From Strigamia acuminata (taxonomy: Eukaryota; Arthropoda; Chilopoda; Geophilomorpha; Linotaeniidae), in contig OX442318.1 in the NCBI GenBank assembly GCA_949358305.1, forward strand, positions 13,126,517-13,190,516: a stretch of DNA of 64,000 nucleotides. Reading direction: 5' to 3'. The translations under genes and the position numbers were made by a program. Shown piece after piece: positions 5,877 to 61,401 of the stretch (position 1 is the first letter of the stretch; each line of letters begins with the position of its first letter). The notes under the pieces were generated by a model. It was not told the origin of the DNA and ran no database searches. It was given only the letters and a program-made list of their open reading frames with translations.

Positions 5877-8800
5877 ATGGATGCACACAGAAGAAACCAA
5901 CCATTCGGCCGGATTCAACGACTTAGAAGGAAGAGAATGAAACATTTTGTTTGTAGTGTATTGGCAGAACAGAAGGATACACCACAGTTCATCACATCTG
6001 TTAAAAACATTACGGAAAAGAACACCGTTATGCTACTTCTATTTGCCACACTACTCGTAGTGAATTCAATGGCATGTGCATACCAAACTATAAATCGAAT
6101 ATTGCATTTCTTGGACGAACCAACAGTAGTTGGCACATACTTAATTGAAACACCACACGGTGCTTTTCCATATATATATGTATACCCAACAAATACACAA
6201 GAATTTCTTAATTTTCTTGACAACAATAAGCTTTATGGTGAGATATATGAAGCACGTGGAATGTACTTATTATTCAAAACCATAAATCCTGAAGATGTGA
6301 TGATACACTTGAGAAAACCTAGTTACATAACTCATGCACACTTTGCTGTGGTAAATTATTTTTGTCTGTCATTTTTAAGTTAACCAAAAGTTTTCAAAAA
6401 AAATCAATATTTGCAGCACAAATCACGAATTAACCTGACCATTAAAAATTATGACACCATTGATTGGCCTGCCGTACAAATTTCAAGTGGTAATTCAACA
6501 AATGACAATAATAGCATTTTTAAATTCTCATTTTACTTTTCATTCAGCTTTTGAATTTCCCTATGGGAATAGAAATAATAAGATGGTTGTCAAATTTAAT
6601 TTTACCAAAAGTTTCCGGACTATTCAAGTGAGTAATTCTGGGCATATTTATTTCTTTACAATACAGTACACACTACTATTTATTTTAAATCAATTATTAG
6701 GTAAGTCTATTGACTTATTTAATAGTTGATTTATTGATTCATGCAGTCATGCACTAAATCTCCAAAAAACAAATTTACTTCTTTTTAAATATCTTAAAAA
6801 GGTGAATTCTTGCTAGAACACAAAAACTAAACTGTACTAAATATCTACAGCATGTGGTAACAATAGCCAATCGCGGATGCAAAAGTGTGGAAACTGATAG
6901 TTCCCAAAGAAACTAAGATAGTTTTTATATTTGACCACCATGGCGCAGGTGTAAACTCACACCTGTACTTTTGTAAATGTAACTGTATACATGCGTTTTC
7001 TTGTGTCTGCTGAATTTGCGCTAAATTCGACTCCATCCAACTCCATCCAAGATAAGTTTTAAGAATTATTACATATTTTAAGTCGTGCTGCGACTGTAAA
7101 AAGAGATAAGTCACTTCGTGACTGGTATGGTCTTTCCCGAGTCAGTCTGGGAATGCACGGGAAGGACTCACACTAACGTAAATAATGGAGACGAGGACTC
7201 CGGATTGTTGGTGGTTGGCCTTTAATCTGTTGTGTAGGGGTCGGAATCCCCATCACCCGTGTTGCTATGCCATGAAGGCACACTACACCTGCAACCGACC
7301 AGTCACACACGGGGCGAAGGCCCCATGGGTGACTTGGTCGGTCACACACGAACATTCTGTCGTACGTACCTGTACGTGTTAGATTTATTTCGTATACAAT
7401 GAGTATGTGTAATGAATGGTTACTATTGTAGTAACCATGAATGAAACTAAATTGTAAGATGAAACAATAAAAGAATGAGAAGGTGTGATGTCACCTTTGT
7501 TATGATATTATGAATGAATAAGACGTGTGTGAGTGAATTTCTTCAAATTCCAAATTATCCCAACAGTACGACTCATGTGGCCATCCATGGAGGCTGCAAC
7601 AGAGACATCTTTTCCCTGCTACTGAGCGTCACGATGGTGAATGGTGAAGAGAGCAGAGCTACTCTGGGCATGACTGCTCTTTGTGCTGCTCCTCTCTCTC
7701 TCTCACCACACCACTCGGCTCCCTCCTCTCTTGGCTGGGTCAGTCCACCTGCAAAGGGGGATGACCGTGGGACCAGAGAACAGTGTGTAGAGTGACGTAG
7801 GTCACCGTGTGTGGCCAGAAGGTCACGAATTCTATACTGTAAGTAAAAATAATTGTTTAAAATTTTGCTAAATCTTAATCCTCTTCTTCGAAAAAAGTCA
7901 TTTCAGACGACTAAGTCAATTTGTCTGTTGATGATTGAATGAACCTACATTTTCAAATAAATTTTCTTTTTATTGAAGGTGTTCATAGATCCATCACCAG
8001 TCATGTATCATATAATCAGGCAATATACATATTTGTTACCAATAGAGAGCAATAAATATCAAGCTATTACTACAATGCAAAAAGTAAGGCATATTTCCAC
8101 ACGAGGGGTTTAAATTTAAACCTTTAGGGTTTTGGCATTTTGGTATTTTGGGCACAGAAATCAAATCTTTGAATGTATGTTTTAGTATCACTTCATCAAC
8201 ACTAGGAGACAACCGTGCGATAGTAATTTGCATGACTGTGTTCGACCTTGTTTACTGAAAAAAATGAAATGCAAGTAAGTAACATTTAATTGCTCTATCG
8301 TTGCTCGATTGAAGAATGAGCCAGGTTGGATAGGCATAACAGATTTAATGATACACAAAACACAACAGAACAAGAATAGATAAGGTCTCGGACTAGACCA
8401 AGAGTAAGGGTCAAGCCCTCCCTCTGGTATTTTTTCTTTGAAGTTGTGACTGGGATATGGTCTTACCCACGCAATATGGGGAATTACTGAGCGGGAGGGA
8501 CGCATAAGTCACGTAAGAACAAGACAGAAGACTCAGATTGTTGGGTTTGGCCTTTAATCAGTTGTCTAGTGGTTGGGTCACCTGTCTTACTGTGCGTTGG
8601 TGCCAGTAGCAGTGTTGTGCATTGGGTACCCGTACCCGTACCCGTACCCGTACCCGCCCGTACCCGTAGGGTACGGGCGGGTACGGGTACAGGTCTCGCG
8701 GGTACGCGTTTTTACGACGTTAACGCCACGCCGTGGCGCTAGCGTCGGAAATTAAATATGTACGGTATACGATGCAGATGCACGGTGCACGTGTGTCGTG

Positions 8801-11484
8801 TGTAGTGTATATAAATTATGCAATCTTCACGCCACGACCACTTTTACACTTTGTTACGATTAAAATAACACAAGACAAAAGATAAATGCATAGTTCAAAG
8901 CTAGACACCATGCGTCGCTGGAAGAGTTCGGGTACAGGACGAGTACGGGTCGGGTAGGGTCGGGTAGGGTCGGGTACGGGCGGGAACGGGTAGAAAATTT
9001 TTTTGGAGACGGGTAACGGGTGGGTAACGGGTACGTTTTTTACGCCAATGCACAACACTGGCCAGTAGGCACGCTATACCGGCGTCCGACCCGTCACACA
9101 CAGGGCGGGAGCCCCATGAGTGACGTGGTCGGTCGCATTGGACGACCCATGTAGCCGCTCACGGTACTGCAGCAGTCATCTCGGATCTGCCACAAAGCGT
9201 CACAGTGGTGAATGGTGAGAGCAGCAGAGTTGGCAGTTGTCTCTGCCATCGATCGGACCGTGACAGCTCGCACTAGACAGTCCTCACCCTCGGCTGTCCT
9301 TACAACGTCTCTCTCTCACCACATCACTCCGCTCGTACCGCCCCCGCTAGGCCGGTCCACTACTCCATGAGGGGGAAGGCTTGGGGCCACCAGATGGTGT
9401 GTGGAGTGACGTGGCCAAACAGTCACAAAGTACTAGTAAGTTTTTAATTAATTTGGACAAGCCTTAAGTTAACAACATTTATTGCCAACATGACATATAA
9501 TTAAAAAGGAACGGTTCTGTTGTAGATAATCCTATTTTCTCATTGAATTCTTCACACTTAAAAATGCTTCACCACAATTCTACTGGCTGTTCTTTCGTAA
9601 AATTGTCAAGTCGCCTGCAGTGAAAAGAACTTAATAACTTCACTGTCAATTTATTCCTCAGATTTTCGTTTTATGAAGCAAGAGATTTTGCTATATGCGA
9701 TGATAGCGAAAGCATTCTTCAATACCAAGAGTTAAAGTCACTACTTTTTGAAAACGATGCACTAACACACTGCAAATGTCTCAACTTATGTGATGAATCA
9801 CAACAAAGCATAACGTTTGATCAAGTAGCTGGTAGTAACAACATCATGGAAGTTTTCGTTGTTAATAATTACGTTCGAACATTACAAGAAAGTGTTTCCT
9901 ACGACATAATATTTTTGTTATGCAACATTGGAGGAAACATTGGCCTCCATTTCGGAATGTCTTGTTTAATGCTCGTTGAGATATTTATTCATTGCTGCAA
10001 AATGTTTTTGACAAAATTTGGCAAAACAACCAAAGCAAAGGGCAAGTTTGAAGCAAAAATTCAAACTATACTTAAAAACATGCAGAAAAAACGAAAACCA
10101 TCGTTTATTAAACATAAATTGACAACCAGCGTGTCATTATTGCTGTTTTGCACCTCAGTTTATCAGACTTACAACTTGATTGCCACTTATTCTGAATGTC
10201 CACTCTCGACAACCGTTAATGTCATTAGAGACAACATCATTGAGTTTCCACTCGTGATTGCTTGTAATGAAAATAGGAAAATAATAGCAGCTAAGACACA
10301 GTTAGCTCGTAAAATGAAAACTGATTGTGACCACTACCAACTGCTCGATTTACTTCATCAATCATCGAAATACGCTAATAAATCCCAAGAATTATGGAGG
10401 GCCTCTTCCACTTACGAAGACTGCGACTTTATGGGCAAAAAGTATTTAGGAGTAAGCGAGCAAAATATTAAACTATTGGAGCAATTGGATAAAATTACTG
10501 TTTTTACAGGAAAATACAACTGATTATTACATATTTTATGCCAATTTATCAAAAATATCAACGGCATTTGGAATGTGCACCGTATTTGATAAAGGTAACT
10601 ATAAAAATAATAAATTCTTTGCTTCTACTTTTTAATATTTGCAGGTGACAGGCTCTTTTCACGCAAGAAAAATCATTTAACGGTTGCTAATTACATCCCG
10701 AAACGCATATGCAACGAATATCAAACTGTGAGATAGGTTTTGCTTGGATAGTTTACACATTCTTATCACGTTGTTGTTTATTTGACTTTGTGCATTTCCA
10801 GCAATTCGTTATGCCGAAAAATCAATTTTTCCATCCAAAATACATTTTTAACGCTCACATTGACCGTTACACTACAATTGATATTTCTCGACAAACGGTA
10901 ATTTTAAATTTTAAACAAAGCACTACCGGTATTTAAATGTTCTTTGATGTTATTCCTTCTAGATTGTTCGAATAAACACGGCAAGAAGTCCTTGTAAACC
11001 AAATAAAGAAGTTACTGAATGTCAACGGAAATGTTTTGCAGAAAAATTTGCAGAACAAGCCCTCAATTGCAAGTAAAAATAGACCAAAGAATAATATGGA
11101 TGAGGTGCAGAAATATACCGGTAGTTCTAATTTTTTGTTACCAGATTGCCATTCATGGAAAACAATACGTTAGAACTCTGCACGACTCTGGAATCAGCAA
11201 GAAGAACTCAAGAGCTATATCTGCATAGTCAATTCAAGACAAACCCCCAAAAAGACTGTTCCTGCGAGGCGAGCTGTGAGGAAACCATTTATATTCTTTA
11301 CAGAACTGCACAAACTAAACATATTGGCATTATGGTAGCTAGATACACGATTGAAAAAAACATTCGAGAAGTAATCGAACAACAGATACAAATTTCTTTA
11401 CCGAAATTATTGTGTAACATTGGATCTGTTTTTGGTATTCTTACCGGTCTCTCGATATTTTCATTCATTGAATATTTTATTTGA
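5877..11484 (+). CDS. Two-domain (tandem-fused) DEG/ENaC channel, copy 1
   Basis: I infer 11 exons: 5877-6350, 6417-6489, 6548-6627, 7979-8083, 8186-8274, 9662-10451, 10510-10594, 10645-10727, 10802-10897, 10963-11072 and 11145-11484. All introns are GT-AG and all phases agree, giving 774 residues. Domain 1 has TM1 at about 50-71 and a short ectodomain. That ectodomain has a WPAVQISS segment where relatives have FPAVTxC, and Cys-rich exons ending in CKCLNLC. TM2 is at about 356-384 with IGGNIGLHFGMS, so the GxS filter is present. A basic linker follows. Domain 2 has TM1 at about 428-448, EFPLVIAC, more Cys pairs, and TM2 with the GLS filter at 763-765. The protein ends at EYFI with no cytosolic tail. 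Neither pre-TM1 region has the His-Gly gating pair. The family forms trimeric Na+ channels in the plasma membrane; this ligand is unknown. The start could also be ATG 5835 or 5775. ATG 5877 aligns with copy 2. Confidence 0.85.
7120..7830 (+). repeat. Dispersed repeat family R2, copy a, in channel-1 intron 3
   Basis: Shares ordered landmarks with 8450-9440: TATGGTCTT, then TTGGCCTTTAATC, then GTCACACACGGGGCG, then a CT-rich block with CTCTCTCTCACCACA, then GGGGGATGACCGTGGGACC and a terminal GGTCAC. GC-rich compared with the host intron. No coding capacity is conserved between copies. It could be an LTR or a non-autonomous element. Confidence 0.7.
8450..9440 (+). repeat. Dispersed repeat family R2, copy b, in channel-1 intron 5
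   Basis: Same landmark order as R2 copy a, but interrupted at 8610-9060 by a hAT-type element. The CT-rich block, the GGGGGAAGGCTTGGGGCC segment and the end near AGTCACAAAG align with copy a. Two R2 copies in neighbouring introns of one gene, same orientation, suggest repeated insertion or local duplication. Confidence 0.7.
8610..9060. mobile_element. Non-autonomous hAT-type element with (CCCGTA)n subterminal repeats
   Basis: The ends are CAGTGTTGTGCATTGG and the inverse CCAATGCACAACACTG. They are flanked by a perfect 8-bp duplication, GCCAGTAG, at 8602-8609 and 9061-9068. An 8-bp duplication with CAGTG-type ends is the hAT signature. Inside each end lie hexamer-like arrays (CCCGTA at 8627-8690 and its complement GGGTAC/GGGTCG at 8930-9035), arranged as an inverted pair. 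There is no transposase. It inserted into R2 copy b. Confidence 0.85.
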
Positions 11485-23001: not shown

Positions 23002-24120
23002 TATCGCTTCATCAGTACTAAAAGAAATCCTTGCAATAACAATTTACAAGACTGTTTGCTTCCTTGTCTTCTTAAAATGATCAAATGCAGGTATAAGACT
23101 ATTATTGAAAATCATCTTTTTCATTCATAATCATTTAAACGTGTTTATGTAAAAATTTACATGTTAAGTTTGTATATGAATGTGCCTGGTGTAAATAGCA
23201 AACGATTACATCAATTTTCAACTTATGAAGAATTGAATTCAATAAAATTAAACTAATTTCCAGATATCCATTTTATGAAGCAAGACATCTACCAAAATGC
23301 AATGACAGTAATTTAAGAAATGAATTCCTCAATTGGACCATGTTTATCCGCTCAAGTAGAGATATACTCAAATACTGCAAATGTCTCGATTTATGTGACG
23401 TGACACAACAAAGCATAGCGTATGCTCACATCCCAAGTCATGACCCTGCTATGGAAGTTTACGTCGTTAATCAATATGTCCGTACATTGCAACAGCGTTT
23501 CTCTTACGATCTAATATCTCTGCTGTGTGACATTGGTGGAAACATCGGACTGTATTTCGGAATGTCTTGTCTGACACTGGTGGAAATGTGTGTGTACAGT
23601 TGTAAAATGCCTTTCATCAAGTTGCACGCAAGAAGGAAACAAAATTCCAAGTTGAAAAAGAAAATTCAAACTATTCTTGAAGGAACGAAGAAATTACCAA
23701 ATCCAACCTCTCGCACAAATAAATTGAAAAATTGCCTATTCATATTTCTGATTGTCATCTCGGGGTACAATGTTTACAACTCGATCAGTTCGTATTTTTA
23801 TTTTCCAATCATCAAGACTGTTACTCTGGTTAGAGACGACATCATTCAATTTCCAGTCATTATCGATTGTGGAGACAATGATGAGATTCACCATTCAAAG
23901 GAAGAATTAGCTAGAAGACTTAAGGATAATTGTCAAAATTACCAACTCTTAGATTTACTCCATCCGTTGTCTTATTTCGCAAACGACACACTCAAACTAT
24001 GGAAAGCCTCGAAAAATTTTGATGGACATTCCATAGCAGTCAACGGGCAGGAAGTAAGCAAATAAAAATTTCTACTCTAGTGCATTTTTCCCATGAATTT
24101 TGTGTTTTATGAAGTGTTTA

Positions 24121-29183: not shown

Positions 29184-30149
29184 TCAATTCTTAGCCTTTT
29201 CTTCGGAATTCATCGGAATTTCTTCGGAATTCATCAGAATTTCTTCGGAATTCGTCGGAATTTCTTCGGAATTCGTCGGAATTTCTTCGGAATTCGTCGG
29301 AATTTCTTCGGAATTCGTCGGAATTTCTTCGGAATTCGTCGGAATTTCTTCCACAATTGCGCGTCCCCAGTTAGATTCCTGCAATTCGATGACCCCTGAT
29401 AAAACTGCCCTGCGATGCACGCTAATAACGCTGCCCGCATCGCTCAACAAAACCTTCAATTTCTTCATCTCTCTCTCGAAAAAATTAACCTTCGAATTAA
29501 CCAAGAAATCCGTCATAACTGCCCCGATCAGCGTAATCACATCCCCAGCACATTCCAAATTCCCATCGTTCGGTGATTTAAGTAACAAACTGAGGAAATA
29601 ACACACGTATTTGGCGAAAATCATCGTTACCAAGGCGCGGCGGCTCGACCGGCTCGATATGACCAAAAGTTCGGCGAAGAAGTAAACGAGTCCGTGAAAC
29701 ATGGCCGCATTCGTCCGCAACGTCGCTCCGCTTTTCGCGAAGTAATCTCGGCATTGCGTCAGCATTACCTGTAGAAAAATCGTTTTGCTTTTGTCGCAGA
29801 TCTTGGACGACAAATGGAAACACAAACGGGCGCTGCTGCGCCTCAAATTCGGCTGCTGAAAGGATTCGTTGAAAATGACGGAAATTGCGGCCGTGAGCGT
29901 TGCTTCGTCGGATTTAAAGTCGATTAGTTTGCCCGCACACACTGATTTGTATTCACTCAATCGCTTCGGATCTAATGATAGCATTTTCATATTGTTCGTC
30001 AATTCCAGCAGTAATTTATACTCGCGACGAAACGTGTGGATTATTGATAGTGGACGGTTTACTCTCGTACGTCTTAAAATGTGGCGTGGAATTAGCGGGT
30101 CGATGTCCAATTCGATCTCCAATTGCAAGTAGATGTTGTTTGCTGCCAT
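29184..30149 (-). CDS. PAIP1-like MIF4G-domain protein, copy B, with C-terminal heptad expansion
   Basis: Single open frame of 321 residues. The MIF4G core aligns throughout with copy A, including MFHGLVYFFAELL, SPNDGNLECAGDV and IELQESNWGRA. It differs at many positions yet has no frame break, which suggests it is or was under constraint. Near the C-terminus it has seven acidic 7-residue repeats (five EEIPTNS, then EEILMNS and EEIPMNS) inserted between IV and EKAKN; copy A lacks them. The family role is in translation initiation through eIF4A and PABP contacts; no direct evidence of partners is visible. Intronless, minus strand, same position in its unit as copy A. Confidence 0.75.
   Translation of the reverse strand: MAANNIYLQLEIELDIDPLIPRHILRRTRVNRPLSIIHTFRREYKLLLELTNNMKMLSLDPKRLSEYKSVCAGKLIDFKSDEATLTAAISVIFNESFQQPNLRRSSARLCFHLSSKICDKSKTIFLQVMLTQCRDYFAKSGATLRTNAAMFHGLVYFFAELLVISSRSSRRALVTMIFAKYVCYFLSLLLKSPNDGNLECAGDVITLIGAVMTDFLVNSKVNFFEREMKKLKVLLSDAGSVISVHRRAVLSGVIELQESNWGRAIVEEIPTNSEEIPTNSEEIPTNSEEIPTNSEEIPTNSEEILMNSEEIPMNSEEKAKN
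29199..29352 (-). repeat. Coding 21-bp minisatellite in PAIP1-like copy B
   Basis: TTCTTCGGAATTCGTCGGAA plus one base is repeated seven times on the plus strand, encoding EEIPTNS heptads on the minus strand. The unit length is a multiple of three, so the frame is kept. Variants are confined to the C-terminal side. Confidence 0.9.
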
Positions 30150-31295
30150 TTTTTAAATAAAAACTGGGTTGGTTTGGGATGTGTGGGCTAGTGGGTGGTG
30201 GAAGCAGTAATGAGGAAAGGTGATTAATTGGGATTTATATGGCTTTTGTTTCTGATTGGTTTTTAGTAATCATGTGGTGCATAAATAAGTTGTTTACAGG
30301 TAAAAATTTGCATAAATCGTCGACTGACACGGTATTACATAAAAAAAAAATTTTAAAAATTAAAAATTTGTTTTTTATGACATTTTTTAATGGAATTTTT
30401 TTTTGTTTGTTAATAAATCGTAATTTAAATGCAAAACATTAAAGTTTTCGACCATTTTGATTAAAATGTAGCAAAAATAAATATAAAGAGTAAAAAAATC
30501 AAATTTTTCAATAATTTTTATTAAAAAAATTTAAAAATATGTCACATCAAACGTTTCCATCGCCTCTATTAACACACTAAAAAAAAAAACTATTACAGTA
30601 AATTTATAAACATCAAAATATGAAAGAAAAAAACCAAAAAACTCATTCACAAATATTAAAAACATTTTGAAAATTAATTAAACACAAAATATCTATTAAA
30701 TTATTCTCATTCACTTAAAATCCAAACATTTCACACACTAGCTACAGTACCATCAATCGTGCTACCAAACGTTGCAAATACTCAAAATACATAACAACTA
30801 CCGGTAAATCCCGACTCGATGTTAAATCACACGTTTTGATGCGTGATTGGTGTTTGGCTTCGCGACGAATGGTGGGAGAAATTCGACAAAAACGTTTGGA
30901 TTTCTCATTGGTTTTCAGCATCGAGTTGCGCAAAACTCATCAAACTACGTCATACGTTGTAGAAATAAAGAACCAAATTAAATCCTTAAGCAAATGGGCG
31001 TTCCCTGTGTTTGCTCTTTTGATTTCGTGGGCGTTAGTTTAGGTGCATTGCAGTGCAGCATCTTCGGGTTTGCTTTCCGTACATCGCGTGTGGTGTTGCA
31101 GTGAAGCTTTAGGGTTGGCGCAAAGCCCGATAGAGATGTTTATGCCACATATCACTCGATACAAATAAATTTAAAAATTTATTCCACCATTTTCAAAATC
31201 TGTTTTCCATCCCATTTCCATTTACTTTTCAACTGACACTGGAATTGCTTCGTAACAAATCGAAATTATTAAAATTGTTGCCAACCCATTGATGA
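30150..31295. other. Flank between unit 2 and truncated unit 3
   Basis: 30150-30330 repeats the promoter-side flank of the PAIP1-like genes. Then comes 400 bp of AT-rich DNA, then a GC-richer block (about 30740-31140) with several CpG and a 68-codon ORF at 30836-31042 that I do not recognise. Homology to the channel gene starts abruptly at about 31296. Confidence 0.45.
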
Positions 31296-32869
31296 AATAC
31301 TACATAATATTTTTGCTTTGCGACATTGGAGGAAACATCGGCCTCCATTTAGAAATGTCTTGCTTAATGCTCGTCGAGATGTTTACACATTGCTGCAAAG
31401 TATCTTTGACAAAATTTGGCAAAACAACCAAAACAAAGGGCAAAGTGAAAGCAAAAATTCCAACTATACTTGAAAACATGCAGAAAAAACAAAATCCATC
31501 GTGTATTAAACATAAATTGACAACCAGCGTGTCATTATTGCTGTTTTGCACCTCAGTTTATCAGACTTACAACTTGATTGCCACTTATTCTGAATGTCCA
31601 CTCTCGACAACCGTTAATGTCATTAGAGACAACATCATTGAGTTTCCACTCGTCATTGCATGTAATGAAAATGTAAAAATAATAGCAGCTAGGACAAAGT
31701 TAGCTCGTAAAATGAAAACTGATTGTGATCACTACCAACTGCTCGATTTACTCCATCAATCATCGAAATACGCTAATAAATCACAGGAATTATGGAAGGA
31801 CTCTTCCGCTTACGAAGAATTTGTCTCTTTGGGAAAACTGATTTTAGGAGTGAGCGAGCAAATTATTAAACTATTAATACAATCGGATAAAATTACTGTT
31901 TTTACAGGTAAATACAACTGATTATTACATATTTTATGCCAATTTATCAGAAATATCAACGGTATTTGGAATGTGCACCATATTTTATAAAAGTAACTGA
32001 AAAAAATAATCAATTCTGTGCTTCTACTTTTTAATATTTGCAGGTGACAGGCTCTTTTCACGCAAGAAAAATCATTTAGTTGTTTATCATTACAACCCGG
32101 AACGCAAATGCAACGATTATCAAACTGTGAGATAAGTTTTGCTTGGATAGTTTCCACATTCTAATCACGTTGTTGTTTATTTGACTTTGTGCATTTCCAG
32201 CAATTCGTTATGCCAAAACGTTTTTCATCCAAAATACATTTTTAACACTCACGGTTGGTTACCTTTGCACTACAATTGATATTTCTCGCCAAACGGTAAT
32301 TTTGGATTTAAAAAAGCACTATTTAAATGTTCTTTGATGTTATTCCTTCTAGATTGTTCGAATAAACACGGCAAGAAGTCCTTGTAAACCAAATAAAGAA
32401 GTCTCTGAATGTGAACGGAAATGTTTTGCTGAAAAATTTGCAGAACAACCCCTCAATTGCAAGTAAAAATTGATCAAAGAATAATATGAGGTGCAGAAAT
32501 ATACGGGTAGTTCTTATTTTTGTTACCAGATTGCCATTCATGAAAAACAATACGTTAGAACTCTGCGGGACTCTGGAATCAGCAAGAAGATCTCAAGAGC
32601 TATATCTGCAAAGTCAATTCAAAACAAACCCCCAAAAAGACTGTTCCTGCGAGGCGAGCTGTGAGGAAACCATTTATATTCTTTACACAACTGCACAAAC
32701 TAAACATATTGGCATTATGGTAGCTAGATACACGATTGAAAAAAACATTCGGGAAGTAATCGAACAACAGATACAAATTTCTTTAGTTAAATTATTGTGT
32801 AACATTGGATCTGTTTTTAGTATTCTTACCGGTCTCTCGATATTTTATCTCATTGAATATTTCATTTGA
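31296..32869 (+). pseudogene. DEG/ENaC channel copy 3, 5'-truncated
   Basis: Begins inside exon 6 at domain-1 TM2 and keeps the later exons: about 31296-31849, 31908-31992, 32044-32126, 32201-32295, 32353-32462 and 32530-32869. Exons 1-5 and the start of exon 6 are missing. Exon 9 is 95 bp instead of 96, and its altered frame meets a stop, so domain 2 is broken. The domain-1 filter reads LEMS instead of FGMS, losing the conserved glycine. Domain-2 sequence is otherwise very close to copies 1 and 4. Introns are retained, so this is a DNA-level duplicate and not a retrocopy. Confidence 0.85.
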
Positions 32870-39101: not shown

Positions 39102-39752
39102 ATGGACACGGAAAAACTCGAGCGGAAAATAACACTTTTAAACAGAACAAACTACGATACGTGGAAACAGCAAATCAAAGTGCTGTTGATGCACCACGGA
39201 TGTTGGGCTTTCACCGACGGGACACAAGAAGCGCTGGCACCGGGAGCGTCTTGGCGGGATCGCTCGGACTTTCAACTGCGAAAGGGACGAGCTTTCAGCC
39301 TAATTTATTACGCCATTGAGGAGCAATATCACGAATTGCTCAGCGGGACCGAAGATGCGAAAACAGCGTGGGACACGCTGAAGACAAACTTCGAACCGGT
39401 CTCGAGGGCGAGAATTATACGTCTGCTGGACGAATTCTTTAACCTGAAATACGATCCAGCGACGGAGACGATCGGCGTATTCGCGGCGAAGATACGCAAT
39501 GCAGCAAAGCGACTAGCCGATGTCAAGCATGACTTGGACAATTTGTATCAAGCATTCCAGCTTATCCGATACCTGCCACAAGAATACCAGTCAATTGTGC
39601 AGAGTATTTATCGATGAAACGATAAGGATTTCACACTGGAAAAGGTTGAAGCGGAATTGGTCGCCGAAGAGGGCAGACTCGCGCAACAACGCAGAGATTC
39701 GGGCCAGGCGCCAATTATAGACTCTTTCAACATGGGAACAAACACAAAGAAC
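39102..39752 (+). pseudogene. Copia 1 gag (UBN2-type), truncated
   Basis: Starts MDTEKLERKITLLNRTNYDT and carries the capsid-like gag fold of Copia elements (NYDTWKQQI, AKTAWDTL, LKYDPATE). A TGA at 39615 interrupts the frame just after QSIVQSIYR; the same frame stays recognisable (DKDFTLEKVEAELVAEEGRL) to about 39750. There the sequence jumps into the integrase region, so the CCHC knuckle, the protease and most of the pre-integrase zinc domain are missing. Gag of intact relatives assembles the particle that packages the RNA. Confidence 0.85.
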
Positions 39753-39753
39753 A

Positions 39754-42705
39754 ATGAGCAAGGGAGGTGCAGTAATTGGGCTGCCATTCTTGGACGTGCC
39801 AATCACTCAGTGCGACGTTTGCACATTAGCCAAGAAGAAGGCGATTTCTCATAAGTCATTGCCAGGAATTAGATCGACAGAGCCACTCCAATTGCTACAC
39901 ATGGATGTATGTGGAGCATTTAGCACACCAACACTCTCGGGAAACAAATACTTCTTAACTATCACGGACGACTTCTCTCGTTATTCAACAGTTTACTTAA
40001 TGAAGAAGAAGGACGAAGTATTTGACATTTTCCAAAAACACGTGAAACGTATAGAACGATTGCTTGGGAAATCGGTTCTCGCAATTCGTACGGATAACGG
40101 TATGGAGTTCTGCTCAAACAAGTTTGGAGAGTACCTCCAAGGACTAGGAATCGCCCACGAGAGGACGAACGAGTACACTCCTGTCCAAAATGGCGTTTCC
40201 GAGAGACTCAACCAGACATTAGCAAATGGAATGCGAGCGCTTGTCTACGATGCCGGCTTGGAACATCGATTCTGGGGAGAAGCCATCCTGACTTTCAACT
40301 ATCTCAGGAACAGGATCGCAAAGCTGAATTCGGACAAGACGCCGATGAAATTGTACTACGGACGTAAACCATCACTGAGACATTTGAGAAAATTCGGAAG
40401 CTTATGCTTTGTGCAGAAAAGAATTCGAGATGGCAAAATCGCCAACAAGAGTTTGCATGGCATCATGCTCGGATATTCAAGAATCACGAAGGGATATAGA
40501 GTATGGCTGCCAGAATTTTCCAAAGTAATCGAAACCAGCGACGTGAAGTTCGTAGAAAGCAGGCGCGGTGTTGAAGGCGTGCTGGGCTTACCAGAAAAAT
40601 ACACGACATACATCGATAATTTGGACGACAATTTGGACATTGACAATGAGCGCCAATATTATTCGGATGAAGATGTCAGGCCGCCACTACCCCCGCCAGT
40701 ACCAGTTAAGAAGAAGGAAGATCCACAACTGGAATTGCCCCCAGTTAAATTGAAATTTAGACTGCCAGACGACAAGTTGCGTCATAATTTACCAGAAGTG
40801 AAGTTGCAGGGCACTTTGCCACAACCCGGACAAGGACTTTTGAATCCAGTTCCAACTATTCCTGCACTAGTTTGGAAGAAAACGGAGAAAGTCAGACCGA
40901 CTGGACAAAGGGATGTCGAGTACACGATCGAGGGCTACGACAAACCCAAGTTACGCTCGATACCCGACGTGAAGCGTTACTGTACTGACCACAATCTTCG
41001 CGTACCAGAGCATCTGTTTGAGGACAAAAGAAAGAAAAAGCCCTCAGAATCAAACACGACGACAGATAGTCTTGACGTGGACTTTGACGATATGAATATC
41101 AACTTCGAAGCCAATCACCTAGAGGTCCACGTACCCGTACGCTATGAGGAAATTGCGACTTTACCCGAAAGGAATGAATGGTGCCAAGCGATGAACGACG
41201 AGATTGACACCATGCATGAGCGCGAGGTTTGGGAACTTGTTCCACCACCGCCCAACACTAAGATAGTGGGTTGCAGATGGATTTACACGACCAAACAGAA
41301 CGAAGAGGGGGAAATCGCACGTTGTAAGGCGAGACTTGTCGCGCAGGGTTTCTCTCAAGTCTACGGCGAGTCGTATGAGGAGACATTCTCACCCGTAGTA
41401 GACTTTTCAATCGTGCGCTTCATGTTCACGTTACTAGTTTGTATGCTCAAGTGGTCATACATTCAGGCAGACGTCAAGTGTGCGTATCTTTACGCAAAGT
41501 TGCATAAAACAGTCTACATGTGTCAGCCAAAAGGTTTCATCATTGAAGGCAAAGAGAACTATGTCTGCAGGCTCCTCCGAGCCATATATGGTTTACACCA
41601 ATCTGGAAGAGAATGGGGAATAGAACTGGAGGAGACTTTGTTGAAACTAGGACTTGAACACGTAAATTGGTGCAATTGCGTCTATAAATACGGAGATATT
41701 GCGTATCTAATCGTCTACGTTGACGATATCGTTGTCTTTGGAAAGCAGTACGAAGATGCGATGAAAATACTCAACATGATTGGAACGCAATTTGATTTAG
41801 TAATACTCGGACAAACGAAGAAGTTGCTAGGAGTCGAATTTCATTCGCATCAACAACAATTAGTTCTTCACCAAAGGTCGTACGTGAACAAAGTGTTGTT
41901 AAAGTTTAAAAACCACTTGGAACATGTGAAGATTCGATCTCAACCGATGACGAAAGCAACTGTTCTCACGAAACGAGATTGCCCAGACACAATTGATGAA
42001 TTCAAAGCCATGGAAGGAATCCCATATAGAAGCTTACTTGGATGTTTGGCATTCATCGCGTCGAGGACAAGGCCCGACATGACTTATGCAGTGAACATCC
42101 TGAGTCAATTTCAATCGAATCCAGGATGGGATCACTGGATTGCGCTACAGGACTTACTCAGTTATTTGAGAACAACGAGAAATCACGGATTGATGTTGTT
42201 CCCGAATGATCGGATCGAGGTAATTGGATACAGCGACTCCGATTATGCGAACAACAGAGATGACCGAATCTCCGTTGGAGGAACACTAGTGACTTTGGGT
42301 AGCACACCCATCTACTGGCGGACCTTCAAACAACGGAACGTAACATTGTCAACAATGGAGGCGGAGTACGTAGCCCTTACAGAAACTGTTAAGGACTACA
42401 TCTGGATTGTTCGTGTTCTGCACGAGATATCCCCAGAATTGGCTGGAAGATTCTCTCATTATGTCATGTGCGACAACATTTCAACAGTGGACTTTACAAA
42501 ATCTTGCGTTGAGAATAGAAAAACGAAGCACATTGACATCCGTTACCATTTTATAAGAGAACTTGTTAAAAGAGATAATCTTCTAATTGTTCATGTAGGC
42601 ACGAAGTCCAATTATGCCGATATCTTTACAAAGTCAGTTGATAAAGCTGACTTGGTAAAGTTTTGCGATCGTTTCTTAGTTGATTTAAGCATTTTGCGTG
42701 CTTGA
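39754..42705 (+). CDS. Copia 1 pol remnant: integrase, reverse transcriptase, RNase H
   Basis: Open frame of 983 codons. It starts just before the last two Cys of the integrase zinc finger (CDVCTLAKKK), with the His part deleted. The catalytic core has LHMDVCGAF, IRTDNGMEF and QNGVSERLNQ (D, D, E). The RT domain (about residues 480-720) has QADVKCAYLYA and the YVDD box in LIVYVDDIVVFG. RNase H (about 820-960) has GYSDSDYANN and STMEAEYVALTE. The enzymes reverse-transcribe and integrate the element. With no protease or packaging gag, this copy cannot be autonomous, and the 39754 ATG is simply the first in the fused frame, not the natural start. Confidence 0.9.
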   Translation: MSKGGAVIGLPFLDVPITQCDVCTLAKKKAISHKSLPGIRSTEPLQLLHMDVCGAFSTPTLSGNKYFLTITDDFSRYSTVYLMKKKDEVFDIFQKHVKRIERLLGKSVLAIRTDNGMEFCSNKFGEYLQGLGIAHERTNEYTPVQNGVSERLNQTLANGMRALVYDAGLEHRFWGEAILTFNYLRNRIAKLNSDKTPMKLYYGRKPSLRHLRKFGSLCFVQKRIRDGKIANKSLHGIMLGYSRITKGYRVWLPEFSKVIETSDVKFVESRRGVEGVLGLPEKYTTYIDNLDDNLDIDNERQYYSDEDVRPPLPPPVPVKKKEDPQLELPPVKLKFRLPDDKLRHNLPEVKLQGTLPQPGQGLLNPVPTIPALVWKKTEKVRPTGQRDVEYTIEGYDKPKLRSIPDVKRYCTDHNLRVPEHLFEDKRKKKPSESNTTTDSLDVDFDDMNINFEANHLEVHVPVRYEEIATLPERNEWCQAMNDEIDTMHEREVWELVPPPPNTKIVGCRWIYTTKQNEEGEIARCKARLVAQGFSQVYGESYEETFSPVVDFSIVRFMFTLLVCMLKWSYIQADVKCAYLYAKLHKTVYMCQPKGFIIEGKENYVCRLLRAIYGLHQSGREWGIELEETLLKLGLEHVNWCNCVYKYGDIAYLIVYVDDIVVFGKQYEDAMKILNMIGTQFDLVILGQTKKLLGVEFHSHQQQLVLHQRSYVNKVLLKFKNHLEHVKIRSQPMTKATVLTKRDCPDTIDEFKAMEGIPYRSLLGCLAFIASRTRPDMTYAVNILSQFQSNPGWDHWIALQDLLSYLRTTRNHGLMLFPNDRIEVIGYSDSDYANNRDDRISVGGTLVTLGSTPIYWRTFKQRNVTLSTMEAEYVALTETVKDYIWIVRVLHEISPELAGRFSHYVMCDNISTVDFTKSCVENRKTKHIDIRYHFIRELVKRDNLLIVHVGTKSNYADIFTKSVDKADLVKFCDRFLVDLSILRA

Positions 42706-45744: not shown

Positions 45745-48290
45745 ATGTCGAAATCCGCAGAAGGAAACTCCGGACGTCTCCCAATTCTCAGCGTAGGAAA
45801 CTACGAACTTTGGCAGCGCTCAATGCGCATGGTGCTGAGAAGCGAGGAATTATGGGACCACGTGACGGAAGAAGAAGAAGTGGAATTTTTGAAAACTGCC
45901 GGAGAAAAAGAGAAAAAGAAATACAAGCGGCGTAAAGCCAAAGCGTTAGGCCTCATATATTGTTCCGTGAGCGGGGCTAAAAAGTCTGCGCTAGATGACT
46001 GCAAGACCCCTAAAGAGGCTTGGGACATTTTAGCCAACATTTATGCGCCATCGTCTCGTGCGCGACAGGCAGCCATGGCGAAGACATGGCTGATTTCATA
46101 AGTCGCGTAGACTACCATGTCCGCAAAATGAAGGACATCGGAGAGACGACTTCGCCTGATCACCACGCATACCAGTACCTGGATTTACTGCCTCGTGAAT
46201 ATTCACAAATCTCCTTCACGATATATCATTTGCCAAATCCCGAATTCACGCCAAAGAAAGTGTCTGAACACATGCGACTCAAAGCGATGGACTCGCGCGA
46301 TTTGGACAGTTCAAAATCATCACGTGCTTACGCTGGTGAAAAACAGCGTGGAAGAAACCGATCTCGACCCCCTAGACAGTTATCTTCGGTGCAATGCTTC
46401 AATTGCCAGGAATATGGACATTATGCTAACAAATGCCCATTACCACCTCGCCGAGATGACAAAAATCAACCGACGGCATCACTTCAAAGGAAGCCGAGGA
46501 GTTCAAGCCGTAAACGCAACAAGAACTCGAACCGGGATGATTCCAGACCAAGGGGGAATTCCAGCGCAAGGCGGGAAACAAACTTTTTCGCCAGTGCTCC
46601 GCAAGCCATGCAGTTGCCCACAATTCACTTTACACAGTCACATGAATGGATTGTGGATTGTGGGGCGACCGACCACGTGTGCCACGTTCAAGCATGGTTT
46701 CAGGATTTCGTCAAGGTTGTGCCCTTTAACATTGCATTAGGCCAAGGACACTCTGAAGTTCTCGGCAAGGGCAAAGTCCGAATTGTCACCATGATCAACA
46801 ATGTAGAATGTGTTGCAAATCTCCAAGATGTGCTGTTTGCGCCAAAATTCGAGGCGAATCTAATTTCCGTGTCAAAAATGGACAAAGCCAAACATCACAT
46901 CCACATTTGGGATGGTGGAGTTCATGTTTACAAATCTGATATCGATCATCCAATGCTTCGAGCCAAAGAAAAGGGCGGCCTTTATTATGTGGACGGTTTG
47001 TGCCCACCTTTAACACTGATGTCAACAGTGGATGCGCCTATTGCGCAGTCGACCGCTCCGACTCGAACATTAGTCACAGCGGAAGAGGATTTTATCCAGT
47101 ATCCGAAGGCAAGGAAAAAGTCAAAAGATCCTGAACTCTTTACTGATTTTCGGCTTGAATTTCCTCCCTTGCCAAATGAACTTCCTCCGCCTATTCCTGT
47201 TAAGACAACCCAGTCCAAGACACCTCCCATGCCTGTCCCTACCAAAACATTACCTCAAGTCCCGTCCTTTGCCGACACATTAAAGTCGATTCCCTTAAAT
47301 CCGAAACCGAATTCAAAGCCAACCAACGCAAAGACGGTTGCAGCGCCTACGGTCAGGAAGGATGCGACGGGGATATGGCACAGCAGATTGGGTCACCTAC
47401 ACACCAATGCTATGAAACTTCTGGCCGGAAATGAACAAGTGTATGGAGTAACCCCGGCAGAAGTAAATAAAGAACTTTCTTGCAATCATTGCAGAATTGC
47501 AAAATCAACCCGTGTTTCTCACAAACCGGATGAGCATCCTATCTCAACCAAGGCTTTAGATCTCCTGCACATGGACGTGTGGGGAGCTTCAAGAACAACT
47601 TCCTACGGGGGCGCGCGTTACGTGCTAACTATAATAGATGACGCCACGCGCTACGCCTGGATATTTCCGATGGCCCAGAAATCCCAAGTATTTGGACTTT
47701 TCAAGGATTATGTCACACGAATAGAGCGAGTGACTAACAAACGGGTTAAGGCCATCCGGACTGACCGAGGAGGAGAATTCATGTCAAATGAATTTGAGAG
47801 ATATCTGAAAGAAACTGGAATTCAAGCCCAGCGGACCAATCCCCATAGTCCCGCTATGAATGGCACAGCATAGCGGATAAACCGCACAATGGCAGATTAC
47901 ACTCGTGCCATATTAGATGAAACTGGTCTTCCAAATAAACTTTGGGCGGAATTCGCAGTGACATTCTCGTATATAAAGAATCGATGCCCTCATTCTCGTC
48001 TTAAAAATGAGGTGCCCTACATTTTATGGCGACGACGTGCCCTTTCACTCCGACACCTTCGGAAGTTAGGTTCCAAGTGCTGGGTTCACCATACAGCACC
48101 TGGCAGGGACAAATTAGATCCTCGAGCTTGGGAGGGCTTTTTAGTCGGATACGCCACGACAACACGAGGATACCGCGTTTGGAATCCGGTAGATAACAAG
48201 GTCATTGAGTCGATCCATGTCCAGATTGATGAGCGGCAATCATACAGACGCTCTAATCATTACCGAGGTCCGCAAAACCATAGACTGTAA
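45745..48290 (+). pseudogene. Copia 2 gag-protease-integrase, broken
   Basis: Gag starts MSKSAEGNSGRLPILS (45745). The frame shifts near 46080, apparently by a short deletion, and continues with EDMADFISRVDYHVRKMKDI. A zinc knuckle CFNCQEYGHYANKC lies at about 46396. The protease box is IVDCGATDHV, with Cys where Ser or Thr is usual. The pre-integrase domain has HSRLGHL and CNHC. Integrase has LLHMDVWGA, IRTDRGGEF, and an in-frame TAG at 47871 replacing the catalytic Glu codon region (MNGTA-stop-RINRT). The frame runs on to about 48285, where it meets foreign sequence. Not functional. Confidence 0.85.
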
Positions 48291-51634: not shown

Positions 51635-54600
51635 TTATAAATTCAAACGATTCGGTTGCTTTACTCCTCTGCCCGATCTAGTAACGTACGAAGATCCTGT
51701 GGGAGCCCTAGGACAAGTGACTTCTTTGTTAGGAGCTGCTGAGTGATCTGTGTTAATTGGTTCTTCTTCTTTTTCTTCGGGAATCGCCTCCTCATTCTCG
51801 ATTTCCAGAGTAACGCTGGGAAGTGGTAATAAATGGAATCGGTTCCGTCGAATTGTTCGTTTATCAGTTTCAATGATGTACGATCTGGGTGATGAATCGA
51901 GTTGTTTAATCCGTCCTTCTCGTCGCAAATCGGTGATCCAGACATTTTCACCGACTTTTAGTGGGATTAATTCTCGGACTCCGTGATGTTTATCGTAATT
52001 TTTCTTTTGCGCGTTCCGTCTGTCTTCTTCTTTTCGAAGTAATATCGATTCGTCAGGTGTTTTTGGGATCAGTTTTGAGCTGATGACTGGGACTGATAAA
52101 TTTCGAATGGCTCTTCCATTTAGAAGTTCGGCAGGTGAGAATCCATTTGCGAGGGGAGTCGCGCGATATAATTGCAGTGCCTGATATCCATCGTCTGCTT
52201 TCTTTAAACTCCGTTTTATAATTTTTACCGCAGCTTCGACAAATCCGTTACTTTGAGGAAATCCGGGGCTGCTCGTAACGTGTGTGAACTTCCATTCTTT
52301 GGCAAATTCTCTAAATTCGGAGTTTAACAATGGTCCAAAGTGTGTCCCGTTGTCGCTGTAAACAATTTCCGGTGATCCTTGCTCTGAGAATAAAGATTTT
52401 AAATGTGTTATTGTTGTCCGCTCGTGAAGACTTGACATTGGGTAAATAAATGGAAATCGCGAGAAATAATCGGTGACGAGGAGGTACCATTTGTTTTCGA
52501 GTTTAAACAAATCCATCGCAATCTTTTGCCATGGCCGTTTCGGGAATTCGGATGGCATTAATGGCTCGTGTCGATTTATCGTCTCTTTGATGCATTCCGG
52601 ACAATTCTTAACTAATTTTTCAAGTTGTGTTGACAAACCAGGCCACCAAACAGATTGTTTTGCCAATGCTCTGCATTTGGTTATTCCGAGATGGGCACCG
52701 TGAATTTTTGCCAATGTTTCCTTCTGAAGAGCTGGCGGAATTACAATACGAGATGCTTTGAGTAAAATTCCCTCGTCGACTGTCAGATCCGTTCGATGTT
52801 GCCAGTAATCTTTAAGTAGCGGAGGAACTTCGTTTTTCGGCGGCCAACAATGTCGTGAAAATTGGATCAAATGTTTGCAAATTTCGTCGTCCCGTTGTGC
52901 TTTCACAATCTGCTGCAGTCGTTCGTCCGTGGTTGGAAACGACTCGGCCACCAAACGTACGTAAGCGACAATTTCTTGATCCAAATCGTAATCGTCTCCA
53001 GTTCTTTCGATTGGTCGGCGAGAGAGAGTATCGGCTAGCCCTAAATCTTTTCCCGCAATATGAACTACCGTATAAGCGTGACGCTGTAACCGTAAGCGCA
53101 TCCTCTGGAGTTTCGGAGTTAATTCGTCCAGTGGTTTCGTCATAAAGATCGGGACGAGCGGCTTGTGATCGGTCTCTAATCGAATAGGAATACCTGTAAT
53201 GAAATCTTGGAAGCGGTCGCACGCCCAAGTGAGCGCGTACCCCTCCTTATCAATTTGTGCCCAATTCGTTTGAGCTGATGTAAATGTTTTTGCCGCGTAT
53301 GCAATCGGTCGAAATTCGCCGCTATCCTGTTTTTGTTTCAAAACAGCTCCAACTCCGTAACTGGATGCGTCGGAAGAGATTACGGTTTCTCTCTTTGGAT
53401 CGAACCACGCAAGGACAGGTTTAGCCGATAGTGCGAGTTTTAATTTCACAAACGCCTCGTTTTGTATCGGGCTCCACAAGTATTCGTTTTTCTCTCGTAA
53501 TAATTCGTTCAGCGGATGAGCTACCGTAGCTAAATGTGGGATGAAACGTCCCAAGTAATTAATCGTGCCAAGAAAACTACGAAGTTCCGATTTGTTCTGC
53601 GGTGCGGCCATTTTTGCTATTGCCTCGATTCGATCTTCGTCGATGTGTACTCCATTGGAATCGATAACATGGCCCAAAAATTTAATGCTCGTTACGCCGA
53701 AAACGCATTTTTCTTTGTTCATCGTTACGTTTTTCTCAAATAATCGTTTTAAAACAGCCCGCAATCGTTCGTCGTGTTCTTCGATCGTGTCTCCGTAAAC
53801 TAAAATGTCGTCGACGTTACATTGGACACCCATCAGTCCCTCAAGAATCTCTGTCATCCGTTTTTGAAAAACTTCTGGAGCTGCCGTGATCCCGAATGGT
53901 AAACGAGTAAACTTAAAACGTCCGAATGGCGTTATAAACGTGGTGAGGAGTTGGGATTCTTCGTCCAACTCGCATTGCCAAAATCCATGATTCGCATCTA
54001 ATTTCGAAAAATATTTTGCTTTTCCCAGGCGTCCGAATAAATTCTCTGTGTTTGGCATCGGAAAAATTTCGCGTTTGATGTAAACATTGAGTGGGACGTA
54101 GTCGACGCACATGCGGATGGTCCCATCTGGTTTCGGAACTGTAACGAGGCCAGAACACCAATCGGTTGGTTCGTCCACTGGTACAATAACGCCCAACAGT
54201 AACATTTTATCCAAATTTTTCTTAATCTCGTTCAATTTCGGAATCGGGGCACGACGCGGTGTGGTCAAAGCATGCGGAATCGCTCCATCTCGTAATCGAA
54301 TTTTGTACGGGATTTTGACACGTCCAAGACCCTGGAAAAGTTCAGGATATTCGATTTCCGGTCGTACTGAAGTGTGACTTGTCTCCGTCGTTTTTACGTG
54401 TTGTACGCGTTTCACGATCCCTAAATCCTCACATGTGTCGCCGTCCAATAATGGTCGGCCGAGGTTTTTGACCACAAATATCTCCGTTAATTTCGTTTTT
54501 CCCCGATATAAAATGTCGTCCCAGAAACTTCCAACCGTTTCTAAAGCATTTTGATCCGCGCCTTTCAATCGTCTCTCGGGTTTACGTAATGTGATCGCTG

Positions 54601-55591: not shown

Positions 55592-55650
55592 CGTAGCAAG
55601 AATTCTACGAATAATTTGAGTTATTTAAGTCGGTTTAACCGCTGCCACCA

Positions 55651-57858: not shown

Positions 57859-60800
57859 ATGGATGCACACAAATCAAACCAAACATTCGGCCGGATTCAA
57901 CGACTTAAAAAGAAGAAAATGAAACATCTTGTTTGTAGTGTATTGGCAGAACGGAAGGATACACCACAGTTCATCAAATCTGTTAAAAACATTTCGAAAA
58001 AGAACACTGTTATGCTACTTCTATTTGCCACATTACTCGTAATCAATGCAGTGGCATGTGCATACCAAACTATAAATCGAATATTGCATTTCTATGACGA
58101 ACCAACAGTAGTTGGCGCATACTTAATTGAAACACCACACGGTGCTTTTCCATATATTTATGTATACCCAACAAATACACAAGAATTTCTTAATTTTCTT
58201 GACAACAATAAGCTTTATGGTGAGATATATAAAGCGGGCGGCGGAAGATTTCGAGGAATGTACAATTTATTCACCACCACAAATCCTGATGACGTGATGA
58301 AACACATGAGAAAACCTAGTTACATAACTGATGCACACTTTGCTGTGGTAAATCATTTCTCCTTGTTACTTTCAATTTAAACAACACTTTTCAACAAAAT
58401 CAATATTTGCAGCACAAATCACGAATTAATCTGACTATTAAAAATTATGACACCATGGATTGGCCTGCCGTACAAATTTCTAGTGGTAATTCAACAATTG
58501 ACAATAATAGCTTTTTTAAATTCTCATTTTACTTTTCATTCAGCTTTTGAATTTCCCTATGGAAATCAAAATAACAAGATGGTTGTCAAATTTAATTTTA
58601 CCAAAAGTTTCCAGATTCTTCAAGTGAGTAATTCTGGGCATATTTATTTCTTTATAATACAAGTACAGTACACACTACTATTTATTTTAAATCAATTATT
58701 AGTTATGTCTATTGATTTATCTAATAGTTGATGTGTTGATTCATGCATATATGCACTAAATTTCTAAAAGGCGAATTCTCTTCTGCTTAAATCACTTAAA
58801 AAAGTGAATTCTAGCTTGAACACACTAGAAACTAAACTTTACTAAATAGACGGCTACCTACAACATGTGGTAAGAATAGTCAATTGCAAGTGCAGAAGAG
58901 ATAAGTTTTTCCCATAAGTCAAAAAAGGGATTTTAAATTTTGCTTGATTTCTTGATGATTAAATGCACTTACTTTATCAAATGAATTTTATTTCGATTAT
59001 AGGTGTTCATAGATCCATCACCAGTTATGTATCATATAAACAGAGGCTTTGTATACTTTTTATCAATAGACAGCAATAAAAATCAAGCTATTACTACAAT
59101 CCAAAAAGTAAGGCATATTTCCACACGAGAGCTTTAAATTTAAACCTTTAGGGTTTTGGTATTTTGGGCACAGAAATCATAGCTTCGAATATATTCTAGT
59201 ATCACTTCATCAACACTAGGAGACAACCGTGCGATAATAATTTGCATGACTGTTTGCGACCTTGTTTCCTGACAAAAATGAAATGCAGGTAAGTAACATT
59301 TAATTGCTCTGTTGTTGCTCGATTGAAGAATTAGCCAGGATTGGATAAGCAAAACAGGTTTAATAACATAAAACACAACAGAACAGGAATAGATATAGAG
59401 AATCATAAACAATCAAAAATTGACTTTAAATAGTAACTTTAACCAATAATGCCTGATTTTATAAAGTTATAAAGGAACGGTTCTGCTTGTAGGTAATCCG
59501 ATTTTCTAATTCACACCTAAAAATGCTTTACCTCAATTCTACTGGCTGTTCTTTCGTAAAATCGTCAAGCCGCCTTCAAAAGAACTTCATACTGTAACTT
59601 CACTGAAAATTTCTTTCTTAGATTTTCGTTTTATGAAGCAAGAGATCTTGATAAATGCAATGATAGTGAAAGCATTCTTCAATACCAAGAGTTATTTTTA
59701 CTATATACAAAAGATGCAATTACATCCTGCAAATGTCTCAATTTATGTGATGAAACACAACAAAGCATAACGTTTGATCTAGTGGCTGGTAGTAACGAAA
59801 TCATGGAAGTTTTCGTTGTTAATAATTACGTTCGAACATTACAAGAAAGTATTTCCTACGACATAATATTTTTGTTATGCGACATTGGAGGAAACATCGG
59901 CCTCCATTTTGGAATGTCTTGTTTAATGCTCGTCGAGATATTTATTCATTGCTGCAAAATGTCTTTGAAAAAATTCGGCAAAACAACCAAAGCAAAGGGC
60001 AAGTTGGAAACAAAAATTAAAACTATTCTTAAAAACATGCAAAAAAAACGAAAACCATCGTTTATGAAACATAAATTGAAAACCAGCGTGTCATTATTGC
60101 TGTTTTGCACCTCAGTTTATCAGACTTACAACTTGATTGCCACTTATTTGGAATGTCCACTCTCGACAACCGTTAATATGGTTAGAGACAAAATCATTGA
60201 GTTTCCTCTCGTTATTGCATGTAATGAAAATAAGAAAATCAGAGAAGCTAAGACACAGTTAGCTCGTAAGATGAAAACTGATTGTGACCACTACCAACTG
60301 CTCGATTTACTCCATCAATCATCGAAATACGCTAATAAATCCCAGGAATTATGGAAGGCTTCATCCACTTACGAAGAATTTGTCTCTGTGGGCAAAAAGT
60401 ATTTAGAAGTGAGCGAGCAAAATATTAAACTATTAGTACAATTGAATAAAATTTCTGTTTTTACAGAAAAATCCAATTAATTATTACATATTTTATGCCA
60501 ATTTATCAGAAATATCAACGGCATTTGGAATGTGCACCGTATTTAACAAAAGTAACTATAAAAATATTCAATTCTTTGCTTCTACTTTTTAAGATTTGCA
60601 GGTGACAGGCTGTTTTCACGGAAGGCAAATCATTTATCGGTTTATCATTACAACCCGGAACGAAAATGCAATGAATATCAAACTGTGAGATAAGTTTTAC
60701 TTGGACAGTTTACACAATCTAATCACTTTGTGCATTTCCAGCAATTCGTTATTTCGAAAAATCAATTTTTTCATCCAAAATACATTTTTAACATTCACGG

Positions 60801-61401
60801 TTACCTTTTCACCACAATTGATATTTCGCGCCAAACGGTAATTTTAAATTTAAAAAAGCACTATTTAACTGTTGTGTGATGTTATTCCTTCTAGATTGTT
60901 CGCGTAAACACAGCAAAAAGTCCTTGTAAACCAAAAAAAGTCGTTTCTGAATGTGAACGGAAATGTTTTGCAGAAAAATTTGCAGAACAAGCCCTCGATT
61001 GCAGGTAAAAATTGACCAAAGAATAATATGGACGAGGTGCAGTTCTTATTTTTGTTACCAGATTGCCATTCATGGAAAACAATACGTTAGAACTCTGCAC
61101 GACTCTGGAATCAGCAAGAAGAACTCAAGAGCTATATCTGCATAGTCAATTCAAGACAAACCCCCAAAAAGACTGTTCCTGCGAGGCAAGCTGTGAGGAA
61201 ACCATTTATATTCTTTACAGAACGCAACAAGTCGGAACAGCACCCCTTATACCAGCCAGATACGCGATTGAAAAAAACATTCGAGAAGTAATTCAACAAC
61301 AGATACAAATTTCTTTCTCAAAATTATTGTGTAACATTGGATCTGTTTTTGGTATTCTTACCGGTCTCTCGATATTTTCTCTCATTGAATATTTCATTTG
61401 A
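57859..61401 (+). CDS. Two-domain (tandem-fused) DEG/ENaC channel, copy 4
   Basis: Eleven exons: 57859-58347, 58413-58485, 58544-58623, 59003-59107, 59200-59288, 59622-60408, 60467-60551, 60602-60684, 60742-60837, 60895-61004 and 61062-61401. They give 778 residues with all GT-AG introns in phase. The architecture equals copy 1: TM1 (MLLLFATLLVINAVACAYQ), ectodomain with CKCLNLCDE, TM2 with IGGNIGLHFGMS, basic linker KFGKTTKAKGKLETKIKT, second TM1 (SVSLLLFCTSVYQTYNLI), EFPLVIAC, Cys-rich exons (CERKCFAEKFAEQALDC), and final TM2 with GLS and EYFI stop. Introns 3 and 5 are much shorter than in copy 1 because they lack the R2 insertions. Family members conduct Na+ and respond to acid, peptides, lipids or force; nothing here fixes the stimulus. 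An alternative ATG lies at 57817. Confidence 0.87.

Follow-up and report, generated by a model that had tools for sequence, protein, structure and literature searches.

A centipede gene family predicted to encode two DEG/ENaC channel modules in a single polypeptide chain

The stretch of DNA analysed in the current study (hereafter the window: 64,000 nt of contig C6 of Strigamia acuminata, the one species considered) encodes, as judged from its sequence, a natural covalent two-module DEG/ENaC chain. The predicted 11-exon gene is laid out as if two neighbouring channel genes of six exons each had become one, and we put at roughly 0.8 the probability that it is functional and belongs to a centipede family whose members encode double-module DEG/ENaC subunits. 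Such a natural concatemer, with its nearly fixed linker, would be useful to channel biophysics.

The gene and its two modules

Splicing by script, which allowed GT-AG introns only, gave 11 exons with 774 codons plus the stop for the gene at 5877-11484 (copy 1). The same 11 exons were returned by a second script, but since this was queried with the copy 1 protein itself, the agreement is a consistency check and not independent. Three further copies were found in the window:

5877..6350, + strand: copy 1 exon 1 (splicing scripts), with the predicted cytosolic N terminus, domain-1 TM1 and start of the ectodomain
6417..6489, + strand: copy 1 exon 2, domain 1 (splicing scripts)
6548..6627, + strand: copy 1 exon 3, domain 1 (splicing scripts)
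7979..8083, + strand: copy 1 exon 4, domain 1 (splicing scripts)
8186..8274, + strand: copy 1 exon 5, domain 1, Cys-rich thumb (splicing scripts)
9662..10451, + strand: copy 1 exon 6 (fused exon), end of domain 1, linker and start of domain 2 in one open frame
9900..9989, + strand: domain-1 TM2 of copy 1, with GMS filter
9990..10121, + strand: basic linker of copy 1, 44 residues (14 K/R, 1 D/E)
10122..10187, + strand: domain-2 TM1 of copy 1, weakly hydrophobic, placed by alignment
10510..10594, + strand: copy 1 exon 7, domain 2 (splicing scripts)
10645..10727, + strand: copy 1 exon 8, domain 2 (splicing scripts)
10802..10897, + strand: copy 1 exon 9, domain 2 (splicing scripts)
10963..11072, + strand: copy 1 exon 10, domain 2, Cys-rich thumb (splicing scripts)
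11145..11484, + strand: copy 1 exon 11, last part of domain 2 with its TM2, GLS filter and stop codon
18294..26632, + strand: copy 2, full-length model of 787 residues in 13 exons; fused exon 23264-24053
31292..32866, + strand: copy 3, a truncated copy that comprises domain 2 and the fused exon from the domain-1 TM2 onwards
57859..61401, + strand: copy 4, full length, 778 residues; fused exon 59622-60408

Copy 4 is 84% identical to copy 1 and has the same intron phases, and in both the stop codon stands nine residues past the domain-2 filter. Copy 2 has 44% identity to copy 1; its first and last exons are split, and phase 2 instead of 1 follows exon 7 (exon lengths summed by hand). In copy 3 the search for exons 1-5 gave no match, and one stop interrupts the model. 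Intron 5 of copy 1 includes a GC-rich stretch at 8500-9499 (GC 0.53 against 0.33-0.40 around it), inside which short GGGTAC-like repeats were seen by eye.

The usual DEG/ENaC chain has one ASC module per polypeptide, and the channels are formed by three such chains, whereas the copy 1 protein has two modules. The Pfam ASC profile matched the whole 774-residue protein in three stretches (E 1.7e-23) and each of the two domains alone, both above the gathering score of 23.6 bits. The match of domain 2 extends over residues 30-372 (E 1.4e-16, 61.1 bits) and begins at profile position 28 of 455, while that of domain 1 (E 2.2e-08, 34 bits) is confined to 260-383, that is, to the thumb and TM2; the N-terminal half of domain 1 gave no Pfam match because it is too divergent. 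When the two halves of the protein were aligned profile to profile, they matched over 314 columns with 98.6% probability (E 1.2e-15). A Cys-rich thumb is present in both modules (cysteines by eye), and the GxS filter is kept in domain 1 in 30 of 31 fused exons, the exception being copy 3, and in domain 2 in all 14 full models (13 by script and locus L047 by eye). The domain-1 TM2 carries the signature IGGN-GL-FGMS, resembling single-module genes of the same genome; the corresponding sequence in domain 2 is mostly IGS-IIGILTG(L/F)S, and the chain ends soon after the filter.

An earlier sequence-only reading of this DNA had proposed a 774-codon two-module frame at 5877-11484, in which ASC should be found twice and a Cys-rich ectodomain and GxS filter should occur in both modules, and these proposals are borne out by the 11-exon splicing, by the Pfam ASC (PF00858) matches and by the filter counts given above. 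The second model that it described, of 778 residues, was recovered as copy 4 with 778 codons. Its statement that the joining exon recurs in copies 2, 3 and 4 holds for all three as far as the exon itself is concerned, with the reservation that copy 3 is truncated, no match to its exons 1-5 having been found, and interrupted by one stop.

The membrane segments are less evenly marked. The domain-2 TM1 is weakly hydrophobic, being detected by a plain hydropathy cut-off in 8 of 14 models and missed in copies 1 and 4; in copy 1 hydropathy shows three of the four membrane segments, and in five of the 14 models a peak lies inside the domain-2 ectodomain, instead of or beside TM1. A His-Gly motif is often cited ahead of the TM1 of DEG/ENaC channels; inspection by eye of the N terminus of copy 1 and of the 31 linkers did not reveal it. 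The AlphaFold2 model of the fused exon, built with 18 sequences, had a mean pLDDT of 43.8, too poor for a fold search.

The fused exon across the genome

Exon 6 spans the domain-1 thumb, TM2, the 44-residue linker and the domain-2 TM1 in a frame that is open for 299 codons, for which the chance in one given frame, at the stop frequency of the window, is about 3.5e-07. An alignment of 31 fused exons was assembled from 19 of the best-ranked loci, ten of the 10 kb loci and copies 2 and 3 of the window, two pairs of rows looking identical. The linker has 44 residues in 28 of these 31 exons and 45, 45 and 40 in the others, with 9-17 K/R and 0-5 D/E per row, a basic composition that the positive-inside rule leads one to expect of a cytosolic segment. 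The ratio of mean dN to mean dS was 0.45 in the linker, 0.18 in TM2 and 0.24 in TM1, the linker standing at the level of the flanking ectodomain pieces (0.47 and 0.44); these ratios come from 245 of 465 pairs with dS 0.05-1 (220 to 245 usable per piece) and, the pairs not being independent, are a description and not a test. Between copies 1 and 4 the fused exon has a dN of 0.066 and a dS of 0.169.

In a search of the genome with the fused exon of copy 1, the best 146 of 1343 candidates were scored, with 43-100% identity and all covering query residues 77-245, and 142 of these 146 best-scored places have no stop in the fused exon. By contig they are found on C6 (70), C1 (48), C8 (22), C9 (2), C30 (2), C76 (1) and C95 (1), counts to which copy 3, although truncated, and near-identical copies contribute. 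The frame stays open through the linker across such a family, and dN/dS is below 1, which speaks against an accident of read-through, in agreement with the insistence of the sequence-only reading that the link was no read-through guess. An assembly error or read-through was rejected on the best 146 places, the linker dN/dS and the quality of the assembly, which was built from HiFi reads and has a QV of 59.6 (PMC10556566). A conserved internal start in the linker was also rejected, no Met position being common to all 31 rows.

The neighbourhood of the fused exon (E6) was described through searches with the first exon (E1) and last exon (E11) of copy 1, each of which gave at least 150 scored places. 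Within 10 kb and on the same strand, E1 lies upstream of 91 of the best 146 fused exons and E11 downstream of 114, with both in 71 and either in 134; the exon lists hold best-scored places, in which the absence of a partner exon is uninformative. The opposite-strand control gave 1 and 1, and the wrong-order control 17 and 21, the latter as would be expected of neighbouring genes in arrays. Viewed in reverse among the best-scored places, a fused exon is in place within 10 kb for 115 last exons and 91 first exons, out of 150 each. In the subset of exon places that was typed (233 of 446, comprising C6 and the C1 array), neighbours within 15 kb followed the orders E1>E6 (52), E6>E11 (66) and E11>E1 (29), with 20 for all others, and the region 1.73-2.05 Mb of C6 shows a repeating E1-E6-E11 order from which some members are absent. 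A three-module gene, which would solve the stoichiometry discussed below, left no sign in this subset (233 of 446 places): the lone E6-E6 pair within 15 kb is that of window copies 2 and 3, between which the last exon of copy 2, being split, is absent from the list.

Single-module genes are also present, with 93 scored Pfam-visible DEG/ENaC exon hits on C1, C3, C4, C8, C9, C11 and other contigs. These apparent single-module genes, some of them in tandem arrays (e.g., C4:7358317-7376957 and C11:5265863-5277589), might supply partners for the double chains. Where C- and N-terminal hits lie close together among these genes, on C4, C5 and C11, they fitted single genes by eye and gave no sign of an independent fusion; the comparison covered these places, and other fusions may exist beyond them, for instance at four hits whose open frames are 283-390 aa long.

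Intron phases and origin of the fusion

For the 20 loci examined over 10 kb, near-complete models (at least positions 7 to 772 of 774) were obtained in 12 cases, one of which (L032) contains a stop, and partial models in eight, owing to truncation, long introns or the 10 kb limit. The intron phases run 0,1,0,0,2 and then again 0,1,0,0,2 in copies 1 and 4 and in 10 of 11 tabulated models. The sole exception, L037, differs at two places, which may reflect a modelling error or a changed gene, and together with copy 2 and L035, a 14-exon model left out of the phase table, it deviates from the standard exon layout. A phase-2 last intron is likewise found in seven of eight single-module loci of the same genome, the eighth (L004) having one exon only, and the single-module locus L003 has the phases 2,1,0,0,2. 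Because its phases are repeated and its phase-2 last intron is shared with single-module genes, the fused gene looks like 6 + 6 - 1 exons. The last exon of a first ancestral gene and the first exon of a second would have become one exon, which was then carried into many copies with its frame kept.

A tree built on the last-exon part (50 rows, 111 columns) placed the sampled domain 1s in one clade (28 rows, 98/95) and the sampled domain 2s in another (14 rows, 100/100), the piece being short and the branches long, with possible long-branch joins flagged. A joint clade of domain 1 and domain 2 was neither shown nor rejected (p-AU 0.55), and the branch leading to domain 2 is longer than that leading to domain 1 (2.95 vs 1.04). 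Since the domain 1s and domain 2s each form one clade, the simplest reading of these sequences is that there was probably one fusion of two tandem six-exon genes, which preceded the expansion.

Relatives, assembly and possible role

The best PDB sequence match of both modules is BRTNaC1 (broad-range thermal receptor 1; PDB 8ymr, 8ymw and 8ymx), likewise a DEG/ENaC channel and likewise from a centipede, where it is described from the antenna (domain 2, E 6.3e-14; domain 1, E 5.6e-05). Domain 1 also matches PDPNaC1 of Scolopendra antennal neurons (PDB 9jf7, E 6.8e-05). Both differ from the chain described here in having one module: BRTNaC1 is a 431-residue chain with three chains per entry, and PDPNaC1, of 421 residues, is described as a homotrimer. 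The stoichiometry problem raised by the sequence-only reading is a real one, as the solved relatives are one-module chains, three per entry, and two modules do not divide three. K2P potassium channels and two-pore channels are natural fused repeats of a channel module, but their repeat number divides a fourfold symmetry, whereas two modules do not divide a trimer.

Covalently joined and functional subunits are also known from engineered ASIC concatemers (PMC4899722, PMC10329638), so that a covalent link is compatible with assembly. These concatemers are man-made, those of PMC10329638 having three subunits and 19-residue artificial linkers, whereas the present chain is natural, with two modules and a 44-residue linker. 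Among the matches listed in the open-licence literature only engineered concatemers were found and no natural DEG/ENaC concatemer, which is consistent with the guess of the sequence-only reading that none had been described. Protein relatives elsewhere were searched with query residues 262-560, and none of the 1283 candidates reached E 0.001; predicted arthropod protein databases may already hold two-ASC models that have not been discussed.

For two-module chains one has to choose among three arrangements, namely a mixed trimer, paired pores and unequal domains. One transcript would give one chain with four membrane segments, in which both termini and the basic linker would be cytosolic and the two ectodomains outside. 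By analogy with receptor families that share a co-receptor, we tentatively favour a mixed trimer, in which one double chain would occupy two places in a trimeric cation channel and a single-module subunit would supply the third.

Three double chains might instead assemble into two side-by-side trimers, one of domain 1s and one of domain 2s, tethered by their linkers, an arrangement that we regard as unlikely. It is favoured by the retention of TM2 and the GxS filter in both modules and by the nearly fixed linker length, and separate domain-1 and domain-2 clades would suit two homotrimers; against this, no precedent was found in the literature among the matches listed, and the predicted fold of the fused exon (mean pLDDT 43.8) is uninformative. 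We know of no two-membrane-segment trimeric channel for which such a linked paired-pore form has been described. It is a shade more doubtful again that a six-module complex, having two linked pores of different composition, serves as a large sensory receptor repertoire of centipedes.

A division of labour between the domains also seems doubtful, with domain 1 forming the pore and domain 2 acting as a non-conducting regulatory or trafficking part, so that three chains would make one pore with three attached domain 2s. The longer branch of domain 2 suggests that it may have another role, and its IGS-IIGILTG(L/F)S signature and early end contrast with the TM2 of domain 1, which is like that of single-module genes. 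However, the better whole-length Pfam and PDB matches belong to domain 2, whose last exon has at least 150 scored places.

Cleavage of the chain in the linker after synthesis, which would release two ordinary single subunits, is improbable: the linker is rich in K and R, but its length is nearly fixed in the 31 rows, no invariant paired basic site was seen in them by eye, and the linker, joining TM2 to TM1, should lie in the cytosol, which furin-like enzymes do not reach. Two genes in one stretch, with transcripts that end or begin in the fused exon and a frame not translated through, are highly improbable in view of the 142 of 146 best-scored places without a stop, the linker dN/dS at the level of its flanks and the lack of a Met position common to the 31 linkers.

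Geophilomorph centipedes are blind, and a DEG/ENaC expansion has occurred in the spider mite. A sensory role for the double chains, in the detection of acid, heat or chemicals, appears reasonably likely by analogy, because of their relatives and of their receptor-like expansion, which amounts to about 146 or more copies in a group of animals that detect heat and acid with antennal channels of the DEG/ENaC type. A chemoreceptor function similar to that suggested here has been proposed for ENaCs of other arthropods (insects and mites; PMC7738191), the available part of that source making no mention of double-module chains. Section 9 of the Strigamia maritima genome paper reports sodium transport as enriched among lineage-specific duplicates. 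The terms ENaC, amiloride and sodium channel are absent from the main text of that paper and, together with degenerin, from that of the 2022 myriapod genomes paper.

The surroundings of the four copies in the window were described by Pfam on open frames. Copia-type retroelement domains (RVT_2, rve and gag_pre-integrs) lie in the open frames 39721-42705 (+) and 46014-47873 (+), and reverse transcriptase, RNase H and integrase occur together in a long open frame at 51635-55624 (-). The frame at 55843-56754 (-) contains an integrase core, and a reverse-transcriptase frame at 61920-63998 (+) runs off the window. In addition, a 322-residue frame at 29187-30152 (-) has a weak MIF4G match (E 8.4e-05) that falls below the curated cut-off.
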